A stretch of DNA of 64,000 nt, taken from contig NZ_CP036533.1 of NCBI RefSeq assembly GCF_024585265.1, forward strand, positions 5,465,001-5,529,000, in the 5' to 3' direction. This document shows, piece by piece, positions 11,545-22,276 of the stretch. Within the stretch, counting starts at the first letter, position 1, and every line of letters begins with the position of its first letter. The DNA comes from Bradyrhizobium sp. WBAH42 (lineage in GTDB: Bacteria; Pseudomonadota; Alphaproteobacteria; Rhizobiales; Xanthobacteraceae). The notes below the pieces were generated by a model. It saw nothing but the letters and a program-made list of their open reading frames with translations. It was not told where the DNA came from and made no database searches. A program made the translations under genes and the position numbers.

Positions 11545-12654
11545 ATGGCAGCACTGAGCATTCGCGCCCTCTCCAAGCGTTACGCCAATCTGGAAGTGCT
11601 GAAGGACATCGCGCTCGACATCGAGAGCGGCGAGTTCACCGTGCTGGTTGGCCCGTCCGGCTGCGGCAAGTCCACCCTGCTCAACATCGTCGCCGGGCTC
11701 GACCGCCCGAGCGCGGGGACGATCGAGATCGGCGGCCGCGTCGTCAACGATGTCGCGCCGAAAGATCGCGACATCGCCATGGTGTTCCAGTCCTACGCGC
11801 TCTATCCCTCGATGACGGTGCGCCAGAACATCACCTTCGGGATGGAATGCCGTCACGTTCCCAAGGCCGAGCAGGACGCTGCGGTCGCGAATGTCGCAAA
11901 ACTGCTCCAGATCGAGCCGCTGCTCGGCCGCAAGCCGTCGCAATTGTCCGGCGGCCAGCGTCAGCGCGTGGCGATGGGGCGCGCGCTGGTGCGCAATCCC
12001 CTGCTCTTCCTGTTCGACGAGCCGCTCTCAAATCTCGACGCCAAGCTGCGTGTCGAGATGCGGATGGAGATCAAGCGCCTGCACCAGCGCATCGGCGCCA
12101 CCATCGTCTATGTCACCCACGACCAGATCGAGGCGATGACGATGGCGACGCGGATCGCCGTGATGCATCAGGGCAGCGTGCAGCAATTCGCCGACCCCGA
12201 CACCGTGTACCGCTATCCGGCCAATCTGTTCGTCGCACGCTTCATGGGCTCGCCGCCGATGAACACCATACCGGCGCGGCTCGAGGCCGAAAATGACGGG
12301 CCGGTCGTCGTGATCGGCGCAGGACGGCCCGACGAGCTTCGTCTGCGCCTGAGGGGATATGACGCCGCAGCACCCTTTCTCGGGCGCAAGGTGGTGTTCG
12401 GAATCAGGCCGGAATGCATCGCCGAGGGCAGCCGCACGTTTTCCAGCGAAGCGCCTGTCCTCGTCGAGGCGCCGGTGGAGCTGGTCGAGCCGACAGGTGC
12501 CGAGACCATGGTGTTGCTGCGGCTCGGGGGCGAGCCCGCGATGGCGCGGGTCTCGCCGGATATCCGCCCCGCGCCCGGCACGTCCGCCGCCTTCGCGCTC
12601 GACACCCGCCGCATTTGCCTGTTCGACCCCGAGACGGAGCGCCTGATCGCATGA
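11545..12654 (+). CDS. Sugar ABC transporter ATP-binding protein (MalK/UgpC type)
   Basis: A 369-residue ATPase that powers the adjacent importer. Walker A is GPSGCGKST (residues about 36-44), the signature is LSGGQRQRVAMGRA, Walker B is LLFLFDEPLSNLD, and the switch histidine is in YVTHDQIEAM. A C-terminal MalK-type TOBE/OB domain of about 130 residues follows (from about residue 240), where regulatory proteins or inducers act in relatives. GGAG precedes the ATG. Its last codons overlap the SDR start as ATGA. Confidence 0.95.
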   Translation: MAALSIRALSKRYANLEVLKDIALDIESGEFTVLVGPSGCGKSTLLNIVAGLDRPSAGTIEIGGRVVNDVAPKDRDIAMVFQSYALYPSMTVRQNITFGMECRHVPKAEQDAAVANVAKLLQIEPLLGRKPSQLSGGQRQRVAMGRALVRNPLLFLFDEPLSNLDAKLRVEMRMEIKRLHQRIGATIVYVTHDQIEAMTMATRIAVMHQGSVQQFADPDTVYRYPANLFVARFMGSPPMNTIPARLEAENDGPVVVIGAGRPDELRLRLRGYDAAAPFLGRKVVFGIRPECIAEGSRTFSSEAPVLVEAPVELVEPTGAETMVLLRLGGEPAMARVSPDIRPAPGTSAAFALDTRRICLFDPETERLIA

Positions 12655-13418
12655 CGAAGACGACCTATTCAAGCCTTGCCGGCCGCGTGGTGTTGATCAC
12701 CGGGGGCGCCAGCGGCATCGGCGCCGCCTTCGTTCGCGCCTTTGCGACCCAGGGCGCCCGGATCGCCTTCCTCGACATCGACAAGGACGCCGGCGAAGCC
12801 CTGGTGCGGGAGATCGCGGCCTCGTCCGGGACCGCGCCGCTGTTCGTGCCCTGCGATCTCCTCGACATCGATTCCCTGCGCAGCGCGATGGCGGAGGCGC
12901 ACCGTTCGCTTGGCGACGCCGCCGTTCTCGTCAACAACGCCGCCAACGATCAGCGCCAGGTTCTCGCCGAGGTGACGCCGGCCGAGTTCGACTGGATGAT
13001 CGGCGTCAATCTCAAGCACGTCTTCTTCGCAGCGCAAGCGGTGGTGCCGCAGATGCAGGCGCGCGGCGGCGGCTCGATCATCAACATGTCGTCGATCGCC
13101 TGGATGCGCGGCGCGCCGGCGCTGCCGGTCTATGCCGCGGCGAAAGCGGCGATCGTCGGCATCACGAACTCGCTGGCGCGGTCGGTCGGTCCCGACCGCA
13201 TTCGGGTCAACGCGATCGCGCCGGGCATGGTGATCACCGAACGCCAGCGCCGGCTGTGGTATCCGGACGATCGGGTCATCGCCGAGATCCGCTCGCGCCA
13301 GGCCGTTCCGGATGCGGTGACGCCCGAGGACATCGCCAACATGGCGCTATTCCTCGCCTCCGACGAAAGCCAGCGCATCACCAGCCAGTGTTTTCGGGTC
13401 GACGGCGGACTTGCCTAG
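12651..13418 (+). CDS. Short-chain dehydrogenase/reductase
   Basis: A 255-residue classical SDR. It has the NAD(P)-binding TGGASGIG motif at about residues 16-23, the structural NNAAND motif, and the catalytic set Ser (NMSSIAW), Tyr and Lys (VYAAAKAAI). Asp after the second strand (LDIDKDAGE) suggests a preference for NAD. The ATG at 12651 overlaps the TGA of the ATPase gene, so it is translationally coupled to the transporter. In comparable operons the SDR oxidises the imported sugar (for example aldose 1-dehydrogenases); the exact substrate is unknown. Confidence 0.93.
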   Translation: MTKTTYSSLAGRVVLITGGASGIGAAFVRAFATQGARIAFLDIDKDAGEALVREIAASSGTAPLFVPCDLLDIDSLRSAMAEAHRSLGDAAVLVNNAANDQRQVLAEVTPAEFDWMIGVNLKHVFFAAQAVVPQMQARGGGSIINMSSIAWMRGAPALPVYAAAKAAIVGITNSLARSVGPDRIRVNAIAPGMVITERQRRLWYPDDRVIAEIRSRQAVPDAVTPEDIANMALFLASDESQRITSQCFRVDGGLA

Positions 13419-13572
13419 GGCGTGTGCTCATAAAAATCGTTTCGGGTCCGCATTGCTGTCCGAGTGAGACGTCAAACACACACGTCAATGCATGCCGCTG
13501 GGCCAATCGGCGCCTTGAGCGCAGCCCACCTGATCGCAAGATGTGATTTTCGACAATGCGATTGGAGAGCTA

Positions 13573-13597
13573 GGAAACCTTGGGGAGTTCGCGCGTT
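13573..13597 (+). promoter_or_regulatory. Possible EcfG-type stress promoter
   Basis: GGAA at 13573-13576 and CGTT at 13594-13597 are separated by 17 bases. This matches the spacing of the alphaproteobacterial general stress consensus GGAAC-N16-CGTT except for A in place of C at the fifth position. The element lies 31 bases ahead of the start of the small exported protein gene. Confidence 0.4.
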
Positions 13598-13628
13598 TAG
13601 GGGCCGGAGCAAGCGATGGAGGAGAACC

Positions 13629-13946
13629 ATGCGAACAGCAATTCTCGCATTGATTGTAGTTGCCGGGAGCGCAATTGCCTTCCAAGCAACGGCCCAACAG
13701 CAAAAGGCTGCACCCAGTGAGCAAACCAAGGAGGAGATGAACCGCGATGTAGACCAAGGGCTCAAGGCTGGCCAGCCCAACGAGCAGATGCAGCGCGATG
13801 CCGACAAAGGGATCAAGACCCGCAACTCCGGAGAGTCCGGATACGTTGCCGATCAAGACAAGCCGGCCGCTTCTGCGCATCCTCCGGGACGACCGGGAAG
13901 TGAACAGACCACGGGTTCGGGTGGCCAGACCAGCACTCCGAAATAG
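13629..13946 (+). CDS. Small exported protein of unknown function
   Basis: A 105-residue protein with a Sec signal peptide (MRTAILALIVVAGSAIAF, cleavage probably after ATA) and a very hydrophilic mature region. Two related segments, NRDVDQGLKAGQPNEQMQ and QRDADKGIKTRNSGES, form an imperfect internal repeat. The tail is rich in Pro, Gly, Ser and Thr, suggesting disorder. GGAGGAG sits eight bases upstream of ATG 13629 and decides the start. It has no obvious operon partner. I do not recognise a named family. Confidence 0.7.
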   Translation: MRTAILALIVVAGSAIAFQATAQQQKAAPSEQTKEEMNRDVDQGLKAGQPNEQMQRDADKGIKTRNSGESGYVADQDKPAASAHPPGRPGSEQTTGSGGQTSTPK

Positions 13947-14156
13947 AATACCTGGTGATGGCGAGTGGCGGCCGGAAATGGCCATCTCACCATTCGCATT
14001 CGGTCCTGGACTTAGCGTGTCGATCGGCCGCCGACCAAATCGCCTTCCGGGTCACCAGCGGCGGTCCGCCGCTCGACGCGTCAGGTCCGGTTCTCCCCAG
14101 GGAACGGCCCCTTTCCACTGCTCAAGGCAGTTCGGGTGGGGCCATCAATAGCAAAA

Positions 14157-15158
14157 TTATTCGATCACCTCGTCGGCGCGGGCAAGCAGCGCCGGGGGAA
14201 GGGTCATGGCGAATGCTTTTGCCGTCTTCAGATTGATTAGAAGTTCAAATCTGGTCGCCTGATAAATCGGAATGTCACCCGGTTTGGCTCCTTTCACGAC
14301 TTTGTGCACGTCATCGGCCAACTGCCTGAACAGCTCCGCGAGATTGAGAGCATAACCCATCAGTACGCCGGCTTCGACGTAATCGCGGTACGGACATATC
14401 GTCGGCAGGCGTTTTTTCATGGCGAGCTCGGCGATGAGCTGGCGGTTGGCGTAAAGATCACCCTCTCCGCTCACCAGCACGGCATCCGGCCGTTGCTCCG
14501 ATATCGCATCGAAGACACGCTCAATCTCCGACGGCTTCCCCTCCTGCGGGAAGACAAAAGCCAGTGAGATTCCCAGACGCGCGGAGGCATTTCGCAAGAC
14601 TTGGCCGACAGACCCTTCCCATCCGCCGCGCATCCCCAGAAATACGGCCTTCTGCATCGAAGGAATGGCTTCTTTCAAGAACTCCAGCCGCTTGCCCCAG
14701 ATCTCGATGCCGGCATCAAGCGTGATGCCGGTGAGGTTGCCGCCGGGCCGCTGCAGATTGGTCACCAGCCCCGCCTGCAGCGGGTCCAGCATGAAAGCAA
14801 CAATCGGTATCGTACTGGTTGCCGCCTTGAACATGGTTACGACGGGATTCGTTCCGGTGACGATGACATGCGGATTGCGAGCCACGATTTCACGGACCAC
14901 ATCGGCATAACGGTCGTGGCGCCCCTCGGCCCAGTAGCGCTCGATGATCAGATTTTGTCCTTCTACGTAACCCAAACGGCGCAACTCACCGAAAAAGGCA
15001 CGCCATGCGCTGCCCCCGCCCGTTTCAGTCAGAAGCGTCGGGGGGATTGCCGGATGGAACATCGCCAGCAGCGGCGGTCTCGCCGCTTGCTGCGCGCGCG
15101 CCGCCAGCGGCGAGACCGCCGCGCCGCACAGCAGAGTAATGAGCTCGCGTCGCCTCAC
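14157..15158 (-). CDS. ABC_sub_bind (TrpX/DUF534-like) periplasmic binding protein
   Basis: A 333-residue orphan substrate-binding protein of the ABC_sub_bind family, which is greatly expanded in Bradyrhizobium. The N-terminus, RRRELITLLCGAAVSPLAAR, is a twin-arginine signal with the common AARAQQ cleavage end. Family features include the GYVEGQNLIIERYWAEG segment and IVFATG-like loops. I prefer GTG 15158 because GGAGG lies seven bases upstream of it; the ATG at 15164 is only one base from that site. No permease or ATPase gene lies nearby, so its partner transporter and ligand are unknown. Confidence 0.88.
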   Translation of the reverse strand: MRRRELITLLCGAAVSPLAARAQQAARPPLLAMFHPAIPPTLLTETGGGSAWRAFFGELRRLGYVEGQNLIIERYWAEGRHDRYADVVREIVARNPHVIVTGTNPVVTMFKAATSTIPIVAFMLDPLQAGLVTNLQRPGGNLTGITLDAGIEIWGKRLEFLKEAIPSMQKAVFLGMRGGWEGSVGQVLRNASARLGISLAFVFPQEGKPSEIERVFDAISEQRPDAVLVSGEGDLYANRQLIAELAMKKRLPTICPYRDYVEAGVLMGYALNLAELFRQLADDVHKVVKGAKPGDIPIYQATRFELLINLKTAKAFAMTLPPALLARADEVIE

Positions 15159-15299
15159 TGCCATGCCTCCGCACGCTGACCAAAATGATAGCACACCTCG
15201 ACAAGGCGGGAGACTGCTGCGCTGCGGAATTCCGGCCCCAGCTTAGGCCTGGACTGGTTACAAGCGCCCTTCGGCGAGCGCGGTCCCGCGTCACATCGC

Positions 15300-15318
15300 T
15301 ATACAGAAGCCCTGTATA
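15300..15318. promoter_or_regulatory. Inverted repeat, possible operator between divergent genes
   Basis: TATACAG and CTGTATA form perfect 7-base arms around AAGCC. It is located between the minus-strand binding-protein gene (start 15158) and the plus-strand histidine kinase gene (start 15442). A related partial half, GTATAG, follows at 15325-15330. Which regulator binds is unknown. Confidence 0.4.
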
Positions 15319-15441
15319 CGGGAGTATAGTCGCCAAAGGCATGTTCCTGATCAATCTTGGGCAACTCTGGGACGGGACGCAATCCGGTACGACAATCGGT
15401 CGATTAATTCATCACGCGTGAGCAAGAGATGATCATGCAAC

Positions 15442-17001
15442 ATGCGATTCAAGCGCCGCCGGTCGCGCTCGATGTCGAGTGAGCGCAAGCGCCCCGAGGA
15501 GGCACTGCGCGAGAGCGAGGAGCGCTTTCGCACGCTGGTGCAATTCTCCTTTGATGTGTACTGGGAAACGGACGCGCAGCATCGCTTCATCCGCCAGGAG
15601 TTCGCCGAGACGCTTCCCGAGCCGCCGGTCTCCGAGATCGGCAGGACACGATGGGAGGTCCCGTATCTCGAACCTGACGCAGATGGCTGGCGCAAACACC
15701 GGGAGATACTCGACGCTCACCTCCCGTTTCGCGATTTCGAGCTCGCGCGGCCGACGCCCGACGGCGGCAAGCGCTATATTTCCGTCTCTGGGCTGCCCAT
15801 CTTCGACGAGACAGGGAACTTCGTGGGTTACCGCGGTGTGGGGCGCCACATCACGGAGCGCAAGCGCGCCGAACAGGCGCTGATCGAGAGCGAGGCCCGT
15901 TTCCGTACCTTCGTGGACCACGCGGCCGATACGTTCATGCTGCACAGTGAAGATGGTCGCGTTCTCGATGTAAATCGGAATGCCTGCGAAAGTCTCGGCT
16001 ACAGCCGGACCGAACTGGTTGGGGCAAGTGCGGCCTTGTTCGATCTTGAGATGGATGAAACGATTTGGCGTCGCAACCGCGAGCGTCTCAAGACCGGCGG
16101 CATCGCTACGCTCGAGAGGCGCTATTTCCGAAGGGACGGCACTGTGTTTCCCGTCGAAGTTCGTATGCGGGAATTCTGCGTAGGCGGACAGTCCCGGATC
16201 ATTTGCCTGAGCCGCGACATCACCGAACGCAAGCGAACCGCCGAGGCGTTGCGCGAGATGCAGGCTGAACTGACACACGCCAATCGCGCCGCGGCAATGG
16301 GCCAGGTCACGGCTTCGGTGACACACGAATTAAGCCAACCAATCACCGCGGTGCTCTGCGACGCAGAGGCCGCACTGAACTGGCTGGGAACACAATCTCC
16401 GAATTTCGAAAAGGCACAGCAGGCGCTCATATCCATTGTTGCAGAAGCCAAGCGAGGCGGCGAGATCATCAGTTGGATCCGTTCCTTGATCAAGAAAGCT
16501 CCGGCGCCGAAGGAGAGCGTCGATGTCAATGGTGCAATCCTGGACGTGATCACCATAGCCCGTAGCGAGCTGATCAAACATGATGTCTCGATCCAGACCG
16601 ACCTCGCTTCGGGCTTGCCGCTCGTGAAGGGCTATCGCGTTCAGCTGCAACAGGTGGTTCTCAATTTGATCCTCAACGCGATCGAGGCAATGAACTGCGT
16701 CGACGTTGGCGGACGAGAGCTGCGGATCAGCACGGCCGCAAATGCATCAAATCTCGTCGTTGTCGGCATACGGGATACCGGACCTGGACTTGACGTCGCA
16801 ATCGTTGACCGCGTGTTCGAGCCCTTCTACACCACCAAGCCGGACGGGACCGGCATGGGCTTGTCGATTTGCCGATCGATCATCGAGGCGCACGGAGGTC
16901 GACTTTGGACCGGTGCGAATGAACCACGGGGGGCCGTGTTTCACTTTAGTCTGCCTTCGGAAGAGCCGCCGGTCGCGGCCAAGCCGAATGACTTCCGTTG
17001 A
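15442..17001 (+). CDS. PAS-domain sensor histidine kinase (orphan)
   Basis: A soluble 519-residue kinase with no membrane segments. Two PAS domains with PAC ends cover roughly residues 28-145 and 150-265 (RHITERKRAEQ and SRDITERKRTAE close them). The dimerisation/phosphorylation box SVTHELSQPITAV follows with His295, then the ATPase domain with N-box LQQVVLNLILNAIEAM, IRDTGPGL and GTGMGLSICRSI. The H-box and N-box pattern is that of the FixL/DctB-like group. No response regulator gene is adjacent. The start may instead be the ATG at 15472 (MSSERKRPEE); neither has a strong ribosome site. Confidence 0.92.
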   Translation: MRFKRRRSRSMSSERKRPEEALRESEERFRTLVQFSFDVYWETDAQHRFIRQEFAETLPEPPVSEIGRTRWEVPYLEPDADGWRKHREILDAHLPFRDFELARPTPDGGKRYISVSGLPIFDETGNFVGYRGVGRHITERKRAEQALIESEARFRTFVDHAADTFMLHSEDGRVLDVNRNACESLGYSRTELVGASAALFDLEMDETIWRRNRERLKTGGIATLERRYFRRDGTVFPVEVRMREFCVGGQSRIICLSRDITERKRTAEALREMQAELTHANRAAAMGQVTASVTHELSQPITAVLCDAEAALNWLGTQSPNFEKAQQALISIVAEAKRGGEIISWIRSLIKKAPAPKESVDVNGAILDVITIARSELIKHDVSIQTDLASGLPLVKGYRVQLQQVVLNLILNAIEAMNCVDVGGRELRISTAANASNLVVVGIRDTGPGLDVAIVDRVFEPFYTTKPDGTGMGLSICRSIIEAHGGRLWTGANEPRGAVFHFSLPSEEPPVAAKPNDFR

Positions 17002-17020
17002 GCCGTCGCAAGTCGGCGGC

Positions 17021-17078
17021 GCGGCGCATCCGTCAGCAGTGCACAGAGCGCCGGCGCCAGCTTCTCCGGCGTGCACGC
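17021..17078 (-). pseudogene. Short relic of the lpxB 3' region
   Basis: The 58 bases here match 21223-21280 inside lpxB at 51 of 58 positions, in the same orientation. Read on the minus strand they encode CTPEKLAPALCALLTDAP, against CTPEQLAPTLSALLTDSP in the intact LpxB. Similarity stops abruptly on both sides. It lies 20 bases after the kinase stop codon. I read it as the remnant of an earlier lpxB end, left when the 17.1-21.1 kb block was inserted. Confidence 0.65.
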
Positions 17079-17340
17079 AGGGCTCTCACCCACATCTGCC
17101 GAGAGGAGCCGGATTGGCATCGACCGTACCGTGACTTACGCGCCATAGGCCGGTGCCGTTTTTGCCGACATACACGGGATCTGCCTCGACCGTTGTTCAC
17201 GGGCTGGTTGCGAAAACGAGGATTGATCCAGTTGCGCGAAACAACCGCGGCTTGTGAAACCTGGAAAAACAGGCTTAGCTAAGGGAACAGCGTCCAAGCG
17301 GCGGCACGGACCCACGCATCAGAGTGACCACGGATACACC
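17079..17340. other. Intergenic stretch with no recognised gene
   Basis: Together with the lpxB relic this fills the 339 bases between the kinase and cyclase genes. I see no convincing short gene, RNA or terminator. The cyclase frame is open back to an ATG at 17254, but the extra 29 residues are unlike a coding N-terminus. Confidence 0.5.
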
Positions 17341-19164
17341 ATGGCCTTCCCCCGTGAACCCGATGCCAGCCCAAGACCCGACCCGCTTGTAGGGCCGGAC
17401 GCCTCGCGAGAGGTTATTCCTGGTCAGCGCAAGCTGGTGGCCGTGCTCGCGGCCGACATCGTGGGTTATAGCCGATTAATGGAAGCGGACGAGGAAGATA
17501 CCCACAAGCGGGTCCTCTTGCTGCGCGCAACCACTATCGACCCGACGATCGCGAAGTACAGGGGCCAGGTGATCAAGAACACCGGAGACGGTTTTCTTGC
17601 GGTTTTTGACAGCGCAAATGACGCCTCCCAATGTGCGCTTGCAATTCAGCACGGCGCCAATGCGATGTCGGCGGAAGAACCGGAACATCGGTTCATCAGT
17701 CTCCGGATGGGGATCAACGTTGCCGACGCGATCTTTGAACGCGAAGATATTTATGGCGATGGGGTGAACATCGCCGCTCGGCTTCAGACCTACTCCGAGC
17801 CCGGCGGCATCGTCGTCTCAGGTGCCGTCGCGGATCAGATCAGTGAGCAGGCCGGCGTCTCCGTCGTCGACTTCGGCGATCTGCATCTGCGAAATCTGTC
17901 GCGCCCCGTCAAAGCGTTCGGGCTGCGCATCGATCGTTCACCGCATCCGGTGGCAGATAGTCCGGTCAGAGCGCAGGGACGTCCATCGATTGTCGTTCTG
18001 CCATTCCGCAATCTTGCCAGTCAGGATGATGCCTATTTTGCCGAAGGGATTGTCGACGAAATCATTCACGCGCTCTCCGCGCTGAAGGAGCTGTTCGTGA
18101 TATCGCGCGGGTCGACGCTGGGTTATGGCAGCGAGATCATCGATGTCCGCGCCATCGGTCGCGAGCTGGGCGTGCGCTATGTGCTCTACGGCAGCGTTCG
18201 CCGCTCCGGCGGGCGGCTGCGTATCAATACCGAGCTCAATGACACCGAGTCGGGCAACATCATCTACTCCGATCGTCATGAAGGCGAGCTCAGCGAGCTG
18301 TTCGCACTGCAGGAGCAAATCTCGACGCGCGTGGTCACGACCATCGCTCCACATGTTCGCGAGTGGGAGCGTGCACGGGCTCTGCGCAAGCATCCGCAGA
18401 ATTTGACGGCCTACGATCTGGTTCTCCAGGCGTTGAGCTATCTATACCGTATGGACTACGACTCGTTCTCGCGGGCGCGCGGATTGCTGCAGCAGGCCGT
18501 CACGCATGACCCCAACTATGCGCCGGCCTATTCATACCTCGCGTACTGGTACATGTTCAGGGTCGGCCAGGGCTGGTCCACCGATGCCGCTGCCGATAGC
18601 ATGGAGGCGTCGCGCAATGCGTCCAGGGCAATCGAGCGCGATGGCAACGATGCGCTCGCTCTGGCAATCGACGGTCACGTGCATTCGTATCTGTTCAAGG
18701 ATTTCGAGACAGCAACCCGCCTGTTGGACCGGGCGATCACGGTCGGACCCAATTCGGCCATGGCGTGGACGATGAGCAGTGCGACCTGCGGCTATCTCGG
18801 CGAGGGCCCAACCGCGGTCTTGCGCGCCGAACACGGCCTGCGCTTGTCGCCCCTGGATTCACACGTGTTCTGGCACGAGCACCTGCTTTCCCAGGCGCAC
18901 TACATCAACGGCAATTTCGATGAAGCGGCCGCCTGCGGTTGGCGAGCGGCGAAGCATAATGAGCGTTTCACCTCGAACTTCCGCATCCTCGCAGCCAGCC
19001 TGGTGGCCATCGGAAAGTTTGTGGACGCGCGCCAGATCGCGGAACGCCATATGCTGATCGATCCGAATTTCCATTTACAGGCCTGGGCGGACCGCACGCC
19101 GCTCAACGCGGCCACCCGCGACAATCTTCGACAGCGGCTCAAGGCGGCAGGATTTCCAGACTGA
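17341..19164 (+). CDS. Class III adenylate/guanylate cyclase with TolB-like and TPR regions
   Basis: A 607-residue protein counted from ATG 17341. The N-terminal catalytic domain starts RKLVAVLAADIVGYSRLMEAD, with Asp39 as first metal ligand. It continues with KNTGDGFLAVF (Asp83) and IYGDGVNIAARLQ, so the metal-binding and transition-state positions look intact. A TolB-N-like segment (GRPSIVVLPFRNLASQDDAYFAEGI) follows, then about 300 residues of TPR-type helices. This soluble architecture is abundant in Bradyrhizobium, and the TPR part probably senses a protein or ligand. It is followed after 42 bases by the PAP2-type gene, so the three downstream-facing genes may be one transcript. The start is uncertain (an ATG at 17254 is possible). 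Confidence 0.9.
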   Translation: MAFPREPDASPRPDPLVGPDASREVIPGQRKLVAVLAADIVGYSRLMEADEEDTHKRVLLLRATTIDPTIAKYRGQVIKNTGDGFLAVFDSANDASQCALAIQHGANAMSAEEPEHRFISLRMGINVADAIFEREDIYGDGVNIAARLQTYSEPGGIVVSGAVADQISEQAGVSVVDFGDLHLRNLSRPVKAFGLRIDRSPHPVADSPVRAQGRPSIVVLPFRNLASQDDAYFAEGIVDEIIHALSALKELFVISRGSTLGYGSEIIDVRAIGRELGVRYVLYGSVRRSGGRLRINTELNDTESGNIIYSDRHEGELSELFALQEQISTRVVTTIAPHVREWERARALRKHPQNLTAYDLVLQALSYLYRMDYDSFSRARGLLQQAVTHDPNYAPAYSYLAYWYMFRVGQGWSTDAAADSMEASRNASRAIERDGNDALALAIDGHVHSYLFKDFETATRLLDRAITVGPNSAMAWTMSSATCGYLGEGPTAVLRAEHGLRLSPLDSHVFWHEHLLSQAHYINGNFDEAAACGWRAAKHNERFTSNFRILAASLVAIGKFVDARQIAERHMLIDPNFHLQAWADRTPLNAATRDNLRQRLKAAGFPD

Positions 19165-19206
19165 GTTTTAAGCAAGCGATAGGCGGCAAATCATTGGGAG
19201 GCTGCG

Positions 19207-20025
19207 ATGGCAGGCAACGCCGGGAATGCGGGAAACGCAGGTAACGCTGGGAATGCGGGAAACGTCGCCAATGCAGGCTCGGGCGGCGGCGGTTGGATCT
19301 TTCCGGATCGCGTGGACCTGCCGTTCATTACGGAAACGGGCGTCAGCACCAACCGCACCACCGTCACCGAGTTTCCGGACCGGAGCTGGACCCCGGACTG
19401 GTACGCCTGGCGCCTGCTGGCCGAATTCGCCATTCACGGCGGATGGAGCTCGATCACGGTCGCCGCACCCAATGCAAACACAGCAGCCGAGATCGACACG
19501 CTCGTAACAATGGCCAAAGACGAGCGGGCGGATGCGCTCGGCGAGATTTTTGCGCAGAACGAGGAGTTTCTGAGCTACTTCATGGCGCTTCTCAACGTCA
19601 CGCCGAACTCGCATCCAAACACCTGTCGCGTGATAGCGACCGCAAGCCTGATCGCGCTCCAGGTCGCGATGCATTGGAAAGGCTACCACAAACGGCCACG
19701 GCCATCGCAAATCTGCCCTGCGCTGTTGCCGCCGATTCAGGTTCCCGGCCACGCGTCCTATCCCAGCGGGCACGCGACTCAAGCGCATTTGATCGCGCGC
19801 TGCCTGAAGTTGGTCCTACCAGCGTCGGTGCAGCCGATGGCGGATGATCTCACCGTGCTCGCCGGTCGGATTGCGCGAAACCGCCAGATCGCCGGTCTCC
19901 ACTACCAGAGTGACACGGACGCCGGCGTGGGATTGGCCGGCGACATCTACACGATCTTGATCAACAAGACCTCCGTGCCGAGTTTTGATGCCTTGATCAC
20001 GGCCGCGCAGGGAGAGTGGCCATGA
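19207..20025 (+). CDS. PAP2/vanadium-dependent haloperoxidase-type protein
   Basis: A 272-residue protein with all three signature segments of the PAP2/vanadium haloperoxidase superfamily: K158-x6-R165-P166 (KGYHKRPRP), PSGH at 186-189, and R226-x5-H232-x3-D236. These form the phosphate or vanadate pocket. No membrane spans are evident, which fits the soluble bacterial haloperoxidase/acid phosphatase group rather than membrane lipid phosphatases. The first 24 residues are a Gly-Asn-Ala repeat followed by four glycines, probably a flexible tail. GGGAGG five bases upstream fixes ATG 19207. It overlaps the peptidase gene by four bases (ATGA), implying coupled expression. Phosphatase versus halide oxidation cannot be decided from sequence. 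Confidence 0.85.
   Translation: MAGNAGNAGNAGNAGNAGNVANAGSGGGGWIFPDRVDLPFITETGVSTNRTTVTEFPDRSWTPDWYAWRLLAEFAIHGGWSSITVAAPNANTAAEIDTLVTMAKDERADALGEIFAQNEEFLSYFMALLNVTPNSHPNTCRVIATASLIALQVAMHWKGYHKRPRPSQICPALLPPIQVPGHASYPSGHATQAHLIARCLKLVLPASVQPMADDLTVLAGRIARNRQIAGLHYQSDTDAGVGLAGDIYTILINKTSVPSFDALITAAQGEWP
19214..19276 (+). repeat. Short tandem repeat encoding Gly-Asn-Ala units
   Basis: A 22-base unit beginning AACGC is repeated at 19216 and 19243 (period 27), built from 9-base subunits. It encodes (G-N-A)n at the N-terminus of the PAP2-type protein. Such arrays can change length by replication slippage without shifting the frame. Confidence 0.7.
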
Positions 20026-21086
20026 TCCTGCGCGCGAGTGATGTCCAGCAACACACGCTTCCGTCGCGGGACGATTTGAACGCGGGTCTGCGTCGGCAGA
20101 TATTGCTGCCACCGCCGCCACCGCCCAAGGACTTCGACGCGCTGAATGCCGATGCGCGGGAGCTCGAATTCTTCCGGCTTCCGCCCAGGCCGCCCCTGGT
20201 CGCGGGACGCCGGGCCGAGACGTTGTGGGCCAGGCTTCTTTCCAAGCCTATCGAAGTTCTGCCCATGATCTACCCGGGCTCCGCGACCGACTTTCGTGTC
20301 AACCGCGGCCGTTTGGGCTCAGGCCATCCCGGCCGACACGAAACCAGCTTCAATTGGTCGGGCGCATGTATTGCGGCGATGGAGGGCACCCAGTTCACAC
20401 AGGTGTGGGGGGCCTGGGAGGTCCCTACGCCCAGTGCTCACTCGTTTCCGCCGGGCGATTATCGCTGCTCGACCTGGATCGGGATCGATGGCCATCGGCG
20501 ATTCGATACTTCGCTGCCGCAGATCGGGACGACGCAAAAGATCGTGGTCGCCAACGACGGCAGCGTCGGGACGCCGACCGCGGAAGCATGGGTTCAATGG
20601 TGGTTTCGCGGTGACCGCGATACGGGTCCGTGGACACTTCCCAACTTTCCGGTGGAACCGGGGGACCACGTCAGATGTGTTCTGACCGTCATGGCGCAGG
20701 ACCACGTCCGTTTTTTCATCAAGAATGAATCGAAAAACGGAAAGTCGCTTTCGGTCGATCTCCTTGCGCCGACGATTCCACTTCCCGGCCCGATCGGAAT
20801 TCCGATCGAATTTCCGGCGCGGGGCCGTACGGCGGAGTGGGTCACGGAGCGCCCCACCGTCTTGCATGCGACGGACCTCTATCGCTTGCCCAAGTATAGC
20901 GTGACGAAGTTCGTGGATTGCTTCGCGCTCGCGGGCACCGGCGGGATCGGCTTTCAGCCTCAAGATCTGGAGAATGCCAGGCTGATCAAGATGATCGAGA
21001 TCCGCGACAATCCGCATCGGACCGCGCCATTGTCAAAACCGGAAAAACTGGACCAGCAAACCGTACAAACCAGGTTCGTGGGCTGA
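20022..21086 (+). CDS. G1-family glutamic peptidase (eqolisin) homologue
   Basis: A 354-residue protein whose C-terminal 250 residues follow the eqolisin pattern known from fungal scytalidoglutamic peptidase. FNWSGACI leads into FTQVWGAWEVPTP, STWIGIDG, then LPQIGTTQ carrying the catalytic Gln (Gln167), AEAWVQWWF, and finally RTAEWVTERP carrying the catalytic Glu (Glu272). Both catalytic residues are therefore present. The first 100 residues contain a run of six prolines and a basic linker, possibly a propeptide; I see no clear signal peptide. It begins with ATGA over the end of the PAP2-type gene, with GGAGAG upstream. Its stop is 8 bases from the lpxB stop on the other strand. Confidence 0.85.
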   Translation: MILRASDVQQHTLPSRDDLNAGLRRQILLPPPPPPKDFDALNADARELEFFRLPPRPPLVAGRRAETLWARLLSKPIEVLPMIYPGSATDFRVNRGRLGSGHPGRHETSFNWSGACIAAMEGTQFTQVWGAWEVPTPSAHSFPPGDYRCSTWIGIDGHRRFDTSLPQIGTTQKIVVANDGSVGTPTAEAWVQWWFRGDRDTGPWTLPNFPVEPGDHVRCVLTVMAQDHVRFFIKNESKNGKSLSVDLLAPTIPLPGPIGIPIEFPARGRTAEWVTERPTVLHATDLYRLPKYSVTKFVDCFALAGTGGIGFQPQDLENARLIKMIEIRDNPHRTAPLSKPEKLDQQTVQTRFVG

Positions 21087-21094
21087 ACACTTTT

Positions 21095-22276
21095 TTAGCG
21101 CGTTCGCCGGCCCTGGCGCATCGTCGCGAGCACGATGTCGGCGGCGAGCACGCTCGGCGATTTGTTGCCGGTCGACATGATCTGATCGAGCCTGGCGAAG
21201 GCCTCGACCTGCTGGCGGCGGAGCGGCGAATCCGTCAGCAGCGCGGAGAGCGTGGGCGCCAGCTGCTCCGGCGTGCACGCCTCCTGCAAATATTCCGGAA
21301 TGACATCCTTGCCGATCACGAGATTGGCGAGGATCACCGAGGAGACGCGGATAGCGCGGCGCAGGATGAAGGCCTCGATGGCACCGACGCGATAGGCCGT
21401 CACCATCGGAATGCCTGACAGCGCGAGCTCGAGCGTCACCGTGCCGGACTTCGCCAGCGCGGCGTGGGCGATGCGGAAGGCAGCTCGCCTCTCGTTCTCG
21501 CCGATTACGATTTGCGGCTTGACCGGCCAGTTCGCGACGCCCTCGCGGATGGTGGCTTCGAGATGCGGCATGGTCGGCAGCATCAATTCGAACGCGCAGC
21601 CCTCACCCCGTAAGCGGCCGAGCGTTGCGCCGAACACGTCGAGATGATGCCTGACCTCGCTGCGGCGGCTGCCGGGCAGCACCAGCAGCACCGGCGGCTT
21701 ACCGTCGCGACGCTTCTGCTCCTCCGCGCTCGGACGCAGCGAGCTCAATTGCTCGATCAGGGGATGGCCGACATAGCTGCAGGGCGGCCCGCCGAGCTTG
21801 CGGTATTCCTCCGGCTCGAACGGCAGCAGGCCGAGCACATGGTCGACATAGCCGAGCATGGTCCGCGCCCGCCCCGGCCGCCATGCCCAGAGCTGCGGCG
21901 AGACGTAATCGACGATCGGGATCGCCGGACTGCGCGAGCGCACCCGGCGGGCGACGCGATGCGTAAAGTCCGGGCTGTCGATGATGACGAGCACGTCGGG
22001 CGCGGCCGCGGTCACGGCATCGGCCGTCTCGCGGATCAGCCGCAGGATCTTCGGCAATTGCTGCACCACCGCGGCAAACCCGACGATCGACAGCTCCTCG
22101 ATGGGAAACAGCGATTCCAGGCCCTCGCGCGCCATGGTGCGGCCGCCGACCCCGACGAACTGCACGCCGTCGCCGAGGCGCTGGCGCAGCACCTTCATCA
22201 AGGCGCTGCCGAGCCGGTCGCCGGATTCCTCCGTCGCGATCAGGAAGATTTTGCGCTTGGGATCACGCGACATCAC
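21095..22276 (-). CDS. lpxB: Lipid-A-disaccharide synthase
   Basis: A peripheral-membrane GT19 glycosyltransferase that joins UDP-2,3-diacylglucosamine and lipid X to make the lipid A disaccharide. It is 393 residues. It shows the N-terminal ATEESGDRLGSALM, VGVGGRTMAREGL, the DYVSPQLWAWRPGRA segment and GTVTLELALSGIPMV near the C-terminus, all characteristic. Its ATG overlaps the lpxI stop by four bases. It is the last gene of the lpxA-lpxI-lpxB unit. A diverged copy of part of its 3' end lies at 17021-17078. Confidence 0.96.
   Translation of the reverse strand: MMSRDPKRKIFLIATEESGDRLGSALMKVLRQRLGDGVQFVGVGGRTMAREGLESLFPIEELSIVGFAAVVQQLPKILRLIRETADAVTAAAPDVLVIIDSPDFTHRVARRVRSRSPAIPIVDYVSPQLWAWRPGRARTMLGYVDHVLGLLPFEPEEYRKLGGPPCSYVGHPLIEQLSSLRPSAEEQKRRDGKPPVLLVLPGSRRSEVRHHLDVFGATLGRLRGEGCAFELMLPTMPHLEATIREGVANWPVKPQIVIGENERRAAFRIAHAALAKSGTVTLELALSGIPMVTAYRVGAIEAFILRRAIRVSSVILANLVIGKDVIPEYLQEACTPEQLAPTLSALLTDSPLRRQQVEAFARLDQIMSTGNKSPSVLAADIVLATMRQGRRTR

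Follow-up and report, generated by a model that had tools for sequence, protein, structure and literature searches.

A gene module of a TPR-cyclase regulator, a repeat-headed PAP2 enzyme and an exchangeable protease, traced from a Bradyrhizobium genome

In a 64,000-nucleotide stretch of Bradyrhizobium sp. WBAH42 (contig NZ_CP036533.1, positions 5,465,001 to 5,529,000; this whole stretch is called the window below), a gene for a class III nucleotide cyclase with tetratricopeptide repeats (TPR) is followed on the same strand by genes for a PAP2-superfamily enzyme and a G1 (eqolisin) glutamic peptidase. We found that the three genes belong to a module that recurs in several families of Alphaproteobacteria and, in single cases, beyond that class, and that the protease place beside the PAP2 gene is taken by unrelated catalytic classes. 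The original prediction had put an eqolisin–phosphatase pair at the center; the pair stands, but the interchangeable proteases number at least three and perhaps four, with G1 only one of them, and the system does not revolve around the eqolisin. The data establish the module and its exchangeable slot, not its function. The component families are known, and within the open-access literature searched their combination is undescribed. In the window, the module consists of:

17254..19164, + strand: cyclase-TPR gene, an open reading frame (ORF) of 636 residues with a class III nucleotide cyclase domain, a middle region and TPR
19207..20025, + strand: PAP2 gene, 272 residues, soluble PAP2 superfamily, with a predicted class A acid phosphatase-like fold
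19210..19263, + strand: N-terminal tandem repeat (AGN)x6 of the PAP2 protein, predicted to be disordered
20022..21086, + strand: G1 (eqolisin) glutamic peptidase gene, 354 residues, with Gln167 and Glu272

The unit is tightly packed. The cyclase ORF, which opens with GTG and may have its genuine start further in, ends 42 bases before the PAP2 gene; the PAP2 and G1 genes (19207-20025 and 20022-21086) share the ATGA overlap that had been predicted for them, and the convergent lpxB gene lies 8 bases past the end of G1. Each enzyme gave one match in the window genome.

The PAP2 protein has the complete set of K-x6-RP, PSGH and R-x5-H-x3-D motifs, as had been claimed from the sequence, and their residues are kept in 119 or 120 of the best 120 homologues, the Pro of RP in 114. 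Its profile match is close to the limit (PF01569, 28.3 bits against a cut-off of 27.2, E 1.6e-6). The nearest fold of the predicted structure is class A acid phosphatase of the soluble PhoN type, with vanadium-dependent haloperoxidases ranked below it among the fold matches. The earlier description as a PAP2/vanadium-haloperoxidase-type protein holds for the PAP2 superfamily; the haloperoxidase type is no more than a candidate, as the shared motif fits phosphatases and haloperoxidases alike. The strict signature of class A acid phosphatases places a Ser ahead of the R-x5-H arginine; in the window protein, this residue (225) is Asn. The G1 protein matches Peptidase_A4, the Pfam name of G1 (PF01828), at 90 bits against a cut-off of 22.3 (E 1.8e-25), and its model has a double β-sheet fold, in keeping with the eqolisin β-sandwich expected of it. 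Gln167 and Glu272, aligned with the fungal enzymes, are kept in 120 and 118, respectively, of the best 120 homologues. The nearest named relative of the locus is in Bradyrhizobium sp. DOA9 (89% identity), and members of the subfamily are extended at the N-terminus by a region in which an FDPL...GLPPRPD-like motif is conserved. From its family membership, the protein is a putative acid, pepstatin-insensitive endopeptidase. The lack of signal peptides, originally remarked on as puzzling, was borne out across the families scanned and not just for the window copy: the leader scan found no Sec-type signal in the enzyme families examined, no signal peptide was seen in the window G1 protein or its subfamily, and a simple scan of the PAP2 protein found neither a Sec-type signal nor a hydrophobic core, the N-terminus being occupied by the repeat head instead.

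A species-level scan with one genome per species gave 58 loci with G1 relatives, whose neighbors were identified with profiles built here. A PAP2 gene of the same family lay directly upstream of G1 on the same strand in 43 of these, joined as ATGA in 24 of the 43, and the cyclase-TPR gene preceded PAP2 in all 40 G1 loci free of contig edges; in the three where it was not visible (L015, L039 and L040), the contig ends there. The other 15 G1 loci comprised one fragment (L050), one locus cut upstream by a contig end (L011) and 13 distant G1 genes from Acidobacteriota, Bacillota and Eubacterium, Actinomycetes, one Mucilaginibacter and one Proteobacteria bin. The 43 loci were found with G1 as bait; the search did not select for the cyclase in them, nor for either neighbor of PAP2 in the 65 loci without G1 described below. 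At the genus level, strong G1 matches (E 5.7e-63 or better) were found in 25 of 146 genomes and any G1 match in 28 of 146, and the 25 best PAP2 matches fell in the same 25 genomes, all adjacent to the strong G1 genes (G049 among these runs off a contig end and G131 has an in-frame stop by the tool's count). At the class level, G1 was present in 7 of 385 genomes, paired with PAP2 in 6, two of which overlap the genus set, and unpaired in the weakest (E 1.5e-27). The neighborhood survey supports G1 as a real, translationally coupled partner of PAP2, with a coupling far stronger than one genome could reveal, and it also supports the suggestion of an undescribed module to which the cyclase upstream belongs. 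Three G1 fragments had no neighboring module PAP2 (L086, L087 and L088, in genomes G071, G112 and G023) and are perhaps decaying copies.

The PAP2 gene also occurs with other proteases. We followed 60 places of non-G1 PAP2 genes from the genus and class lists, setting weaker matches aside, and 5 of 105 matching plasmid records (Phaeobacter, Terrarubrum, Rhizobium, Paracoccus and Sinorhizobium); the S8, C70 and HExxH profiles used for labeling were seeded from some of the genes they later label. Among the 108 PAP2 loci thus classified (43 G1 and 65 others), 93 had both a TPR regulator and a protease, 8 had one of the two, and 7 had no protease. The eight one-partner loci include four cut by contig edges (L015, L039, L040 and L128), one that ends with its contig (L132) and three where the unrecognized partner is annotated in the record (L188, L189 and L190). 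The protease-less loci (L176 and L180-L185) are distant or ordinary PAP2s, L185 having a divergent regulator match of 101 bits but no protease. Within the 101 module loci, 91 had a codirectional regulator and 5 a divergent one; the protease was codirectional in the 43 G1, 36 S8 (serine) and 6 C70-like (cysteine) cases, convergent in 9 HExxH and 1 C70-like cases, an S8 gene upstream of the regulator and divergent in 3, and not recognized in 3.

The class labels are supported by Pfam for C70 (Peptidase_C70 in 5 of 5 labeled proteins) and S8 (Peptidase_S8 in 6 of 7, with no match for L108), and crude catalytic motifs were present in the 39 S8 proteins as GTS in 35, HGT in 19 and the Asp in 29. 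The fourth type is a set of proteins of ∼815 to 985 residues, encoded convergently with repeat-headed PAP2 genes. HExxH is present in 9 of 9 and FAHS.GDAL is invariant, and the motif makes them putative zinc metalloproteases; the family had no Pfam match and no meaningful sequence match in the PDB. These are:

L140:8721-11174, L141, L142, L143, L144, L153, L166, L167 and L168: HExxH proteins

A Rhodospirillales genome carries both a G1 module and, a few kilobases off on the other strand, an S8 module (L044:11040-16339); its called PAP2 ORF overlaps the regulator, leaving the start unsure.

The PAP2 of the module has a further peculiarity at its N-terminus. The window protein begins with M(AGN)6, and residues 1-35 of its AlphaFold2 model have a confidence score (pLDDT) below 50. 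With a criterion of a tandem-repeat score of at least 6 within the first 130 residues, a repeat head was found in 95 of the 101 module loci versus 0 of 7 other PAP2 loci; two of the six module loci without it by score (L014, L015, L128, L130, L136 and L175) are at contig edges, and in L188 and L190 the repeat begins only near residue 105. The same criterion gave a repeat in 95 of the best 120 PAP2 homologues and in none of the controls (0 of 120 shuffles of the first 60 residues, 0 of 120 for the last 150 residues and 0 of 120 G1 proteins). The unit varies by lineage (GNA, GNT, GGA, GSF, NSF, SGV, NAE, DAR, GA, MG, DF and others) and is mostly three residues long, units of one, two, four, five and six also occurring.

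Such a repeat could be a recent DNA microsatellite, and we rejected this explanation since neighboring units mostly differ in their codons. In 89 tracts, adjacent units used identical codons for the same residue at 560 of 1,876 sites, versus 662.6 expected from within-tract shuffles of synonymous codons; the tracts that produce the deficit (z −5.8) are related, and the GA tracts of L166 and L167 make up about a quarter of it. Some tracts do have like-coded neighboring units (e.g., L144 and L156), and in the window tract, 7 of 9 codons agree between units spaced three apart; an older 27-base duplication therefore contributed. As adjacent units mostly have different codons, the repeat is retained as a peptide and not as DNA; in general it is no fresh DNA expansion, and the simplest reading is that selection acts on the peptide. 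A (GNA)/(GNT) head as a common feature of the genome was likewise rejected, the degenerate pattern matching only the PAP2 gene.

The window regulator combines a Guanylate_cyc domain (E 5.5e-11) with TPR and has D68, K108, D112, D169, N172 and R176. Across 39 G1-linked cyclases, the two metal-binding Asp (37 and 37) and the transition-state Asn (37) and Arg (38) are kept, and the purine-selecting sites are less constant (Lys in 28 and Asp in 18). The window genome has 29 further matches to this protein, and the cyclase could thus be a chance member of a big paralogous family. In a tree of 83 cyclase and regulator proteins, in which the G1-linked set held the window protein and roughly half of the remaining ones, selected by a thinning rule, the 21 G1-linked cyclases formed one side of a branch with a support of 99 (Shimodaira–Hasegawa-like approximate likelihood ratio test, SH-aLRT), apart from the 15 included paralogues of the window genome, and we rejected that explanation. 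The C70-linked group and one S8-linked group adjoin the G1-linked cyclases (support 94, unstarred). With labels for the four protease types and the genome's own paralogues, the tree requires 7 changes, compared with 44.0 for shuffled labels. The tree was made with a quick method and has several long branches, and its deep branching is untrustworthy.

Other outputs occur outside the G1 form. Pfam was run on nine regulators, and the eight non-G1 ones among them had Trans_reg_C (two), BTAD (one), a sub-threshold cyclase (one) or only TPR or FlgO-like matches (four); the remaining TPR regulators were labeled by a profile from the 39 G1-linked cyclases, the lowest score being 36 bits (L149). Crp-like genes stand near a minority of the modules: phmmer found one in 9 of 123 loci scanned (the seed's own included), all nine being G1 loci, at about 2.7-4 kb from the PAP2 start and with an FGE...R(S/T)A motif. 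Pfam recognized cNMP_binding in all three Crp-like proteins tested (L006:4056-4808, L049:4091-4894 and L033:8866-9663, the last from outside the phmmer nine). No Crp-like gene was among the three window neighbors scanned, which encode a PAS histidine kinase, an ABC substrate-binding protein and LpxB.

A PAP2 survey of 398 genomes across Pseudomonadota extended the distribution. The 22 strongest loci fetched (L222-L243, at least 142 bits) include 14 new places, of which 13 have an adjacent TPR regulator (only 19 bits in L241; L243 has none) and 13 an adjacent protease (only 26 bits in L242; L239 has none); eight weaker loci (L244-L251, at most 107 bits; L245 is the same as L180) had neither. 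A repeat head was found in 21 of the 22 module-type PAP2s, 8 of which had been sampled before, versus 0 of the 8 others. L233 and L236 lie beyond the class, as does an S8 form on a Caballeronia plasmid (Betaproteobacteria).

The module in the window is probably an arrival at its present place. We searched 40 genomes of the genus for the lpxB locus and fetched 20 loci, of which 2 have the module there. In 8 of the 18 module-free loci, the lpxB end (21105) comes within ∼140 bases of the gene ending at 13418, and in the remaining 10, lpxB lacks this junction; among the 18, at least G007 carries a G1 module elsewhere, and G018, one of the eight, has S8 modules elsewhere. Given the junction in eight relatives, a stretch of ∼7.7 kb including the module was likely inserted here, loss in the relatives being the alternative. 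Just upstream of the cyclase gene is a short piece of lpxB in the same orientation as the original, and together the two bracket the module, which suggests that the module and its flank moved together. From the sequence comparisons, we infer horizontal transfer of the module. The two features are:

13419..21105, no strand: probable insertion holding the module, missing between lpxB and the gene at 12414-13418 in 8 of 18 relatives
17014..17078, − strand: near-copy (65 bp, 88% identity) of part of lpxB (21216-21280)

We lean, if only slightly, toward the three genes being one functional unit, with two leaderless hydrolases that act jointly under the control of a regulator. A TPR signaling protein with a cyclase output would govern the PAP2 enzyme and the protease, with cyclic AMP made by the cyclase as a putative signal, and the two enzymes would cooperate in the cytosol or be delivered by a route other than Sec. 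The PAP2 would be the constant enzyme and the protease would provide generic proteolysis, for which reason its slot could be filled by unrelated catalytic classes; the repeat would be a selected and probably extended tether or tag, linking the PAP2 to a partner or gating it. In a bolder reading, plausible to us but short of probable, the loci make up an undescribed class of effector module in proteobacteria. A sensor (TPR with a cyclase, winged-helix or SARP-type output) would control two enzymes, a constant phosphatase with the repeat head and a protease that is freely exchanged among the glutamic, cysteine and serine types and, provided that the HExxH proteins are peptidases, the metallo type. 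The head would then be a lineage-specific tag, selected for exact periodicity and not composition, which the TPR partner reads or the protease cuts.

Several observations weigh against a functional unit of this kind. The acid optimum of the characterized G1 enzymes is the main difficulty for a role of the window copy in a neutral cytosol; the bacterial enzyme pepG1 is active at pH 2-5, as the fungal enzymes are, according to PMC3009609. The HExxH gene is convergent and outside the operon, and the three divergent S8 genes are upstream of the cyclase. The regulators of some S8 modules carry a winged helix or no recognized output in place of a cyclase, and one C70-type regulator has a SARP-type domain instead; with such outputs, an operon of two enzymes under ordinary transcriptional control would account for the gene order too. 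Finally, the flanking genes scanned give no clear functional theme.

Among the alternatives, a possible but doubtful one, which is also the most specific version of the favored reading, is that the protease cuts the repeat head and thereby activates or releases the PAP2 enzyme, with the TPR cyclase as the trigger. In all codirectional cases the PAP2 gene comes before the protease gene, the protease is exchangeable, and the disorder in the model falls on the head. However, one protease class goes with many repeat units, so that no cleavage code is visible, and on general grounds (GA)n or (GNT)n heads would be expected to make poor protease substrates. The gene order has a parallel in recently described, analogous nuclease–protease pairs, where the nuclease gene is likewise typically upstream (PMC12799240).

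That the genes serve nutrient scavenging, as a degradative pair coregulated for phosphate and nitrogen supply with an unknown export route and the repeat as an export or anchor signal, seems unlikely to us. The PAP2 fold is that of a class A acid phosphatase and G1 enzymes are acid peptidases; transporters (ABC, MFS and EamA) are the commonest flank families, and some loci have Crp-like neighbors. The cysteine and HExxH protease types, on the other hand, are not acid-specific, the enzymes scanned have no Sec-type signal, and no secretion family is among the best 25 of the 123 flank families.

We would be similarly surprised by a cell-intrinsic conflict module, for defense or altruistic death, with a swappable protease effector. 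The effector exchange, the uneven occurrence (any G1 match in 28 of 146 genomes of the genus), the probable insertion relative to other genomes and the weak similarity of the cyclase to Pycsar cyclases (E 1.9e-5, with only weak PycC matches in PADLOC) are consistent with it. In contrast, PADLOC gave no match at E 0.01 for the window PAP2 and G1 proteins, one C70 and two S8 proteins or at E 1e-5 for two HExxH proteins, and the viral loci fetched contained no copy of the module. The flanks speak the same way. PADLOC was run on 106 of 112 proposed flanking genes from 30 loci, as raw counts with no control flanks, and matched 12 families with at most 5 of the 106 genes each (mad3 5, mad8 5, TIR effector 4, AriA 4 and PycTIR 3); TIR and PycTIR matches were traced for three Crp-like proteins, whose TIR-effector matches probably lie on the stretch of the models that they have in common as cNMP-binding proteins. 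With matches so scattered, we rejected a defense-island context.

Very unlikely, in our view, is a system resembling those for ribosomally synthesized and posttranslationally modified peptides, in which the enzymes tailor and cut a precursor peptide. The cyclase resembles the "peptide modification system cyclase" model, far under the cut-off (44.6 versus 400 bits), and the Rhizobium and Sinorhizobium plasmid copies (L188:8408-10950 and L190:8307-11035) precede genes annotated as HEXXH peptide-modification and ThiF genes, but the unit, with its 42-base gap, its overlap and lpxB 8 bases on, is too tight for a precursor gene. Accidental neighbors, with the order due to common descent of one chance arrangement, are scarcely credible: some loci are closely related and counted several times, but the arrangement occurs in several Alphaproteobacteria families, a Betaproteobacterium and two more out-of-class genomes, with differing proteases.

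The functional unit that we favor can be set beside known systems. The class A nonspecific acid phosphatases PhoN and PhoC are periplasmic and have signal peptides; the window PAP2 differs from them by its N-terminal tandem repeat and N225, and vanadium-dependent haloperoxidases share less fold similarity with it than the acid phosphatases do. The closest peptidase is pepG1 of Alicyclobacillus (MEROPS family G1), which is like the window G1 in its Gln/Glu dyad and eqolisin fold. It has a signal peptide according to PMC3009609, whereas none was seen in the window subfamily, which also has the extra N-terminal region and a gene tied to the cyclase and PAP2. Protease-activated pro-nucleases of antiviral systems, with trypsin-like or caspase partners, are described in PMC12799240; the two are alike in the enzyme gene being typically upstream, the exchangeable protease and the several sensing partners, but the pro-nuclease pairs have a metallo-β-lactamase nuclease and the module has a PAP2, a TPR cyclase or SARP-type regulator in place of the known sensors, a separate protease gene and a repeat head. 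The vWA/MoxR/VMAP and other nucleoside triphosphate-dependent conflict systems likewise combine cNMP cyclases with exchangeable peptidase domains, according to PMC7159879, a text in which haloperoxidase or PAP2 have 0 occurrences; unlike them, the three window proteins have no vWA, MoxR or STAND among their Pfam matches. The module was not found in open-access full texts, subscription papers being outside the search, or in the PADLOC models for the proteins tested, and passages of PMC4926216 and PMC6154417 make no mention of it.

What had been an annotation oddity has thus become a testable system. The little-characterized bacterial G1 peptidases gain a fixed genetic partner and a regulator, and the presence of unrelated catalytic classes in one slot beside one enzyme suggests that cleavage itself is what the slot requires. 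In the peptide head, the unit shifts between lineages with the periodicity kept and the neighboring codons mostly different, and why a perfect peptide repeat is preserved at the head of a leaderless enzyme can now be asked.

Carriage of the module by phages was rejected: in the viral loci fetched, 18 with PAP2 and 1 with G1, the profiles found no other module gene. The viral G1-like gene (L270:5001-5747) stands on a viral-classed contig with no recognized cyclase or PAP2, and the phage-classed contigs L252-L269 carry PAP2 relatives at ∼30% identity, several in ORFs of ∼700 residues.

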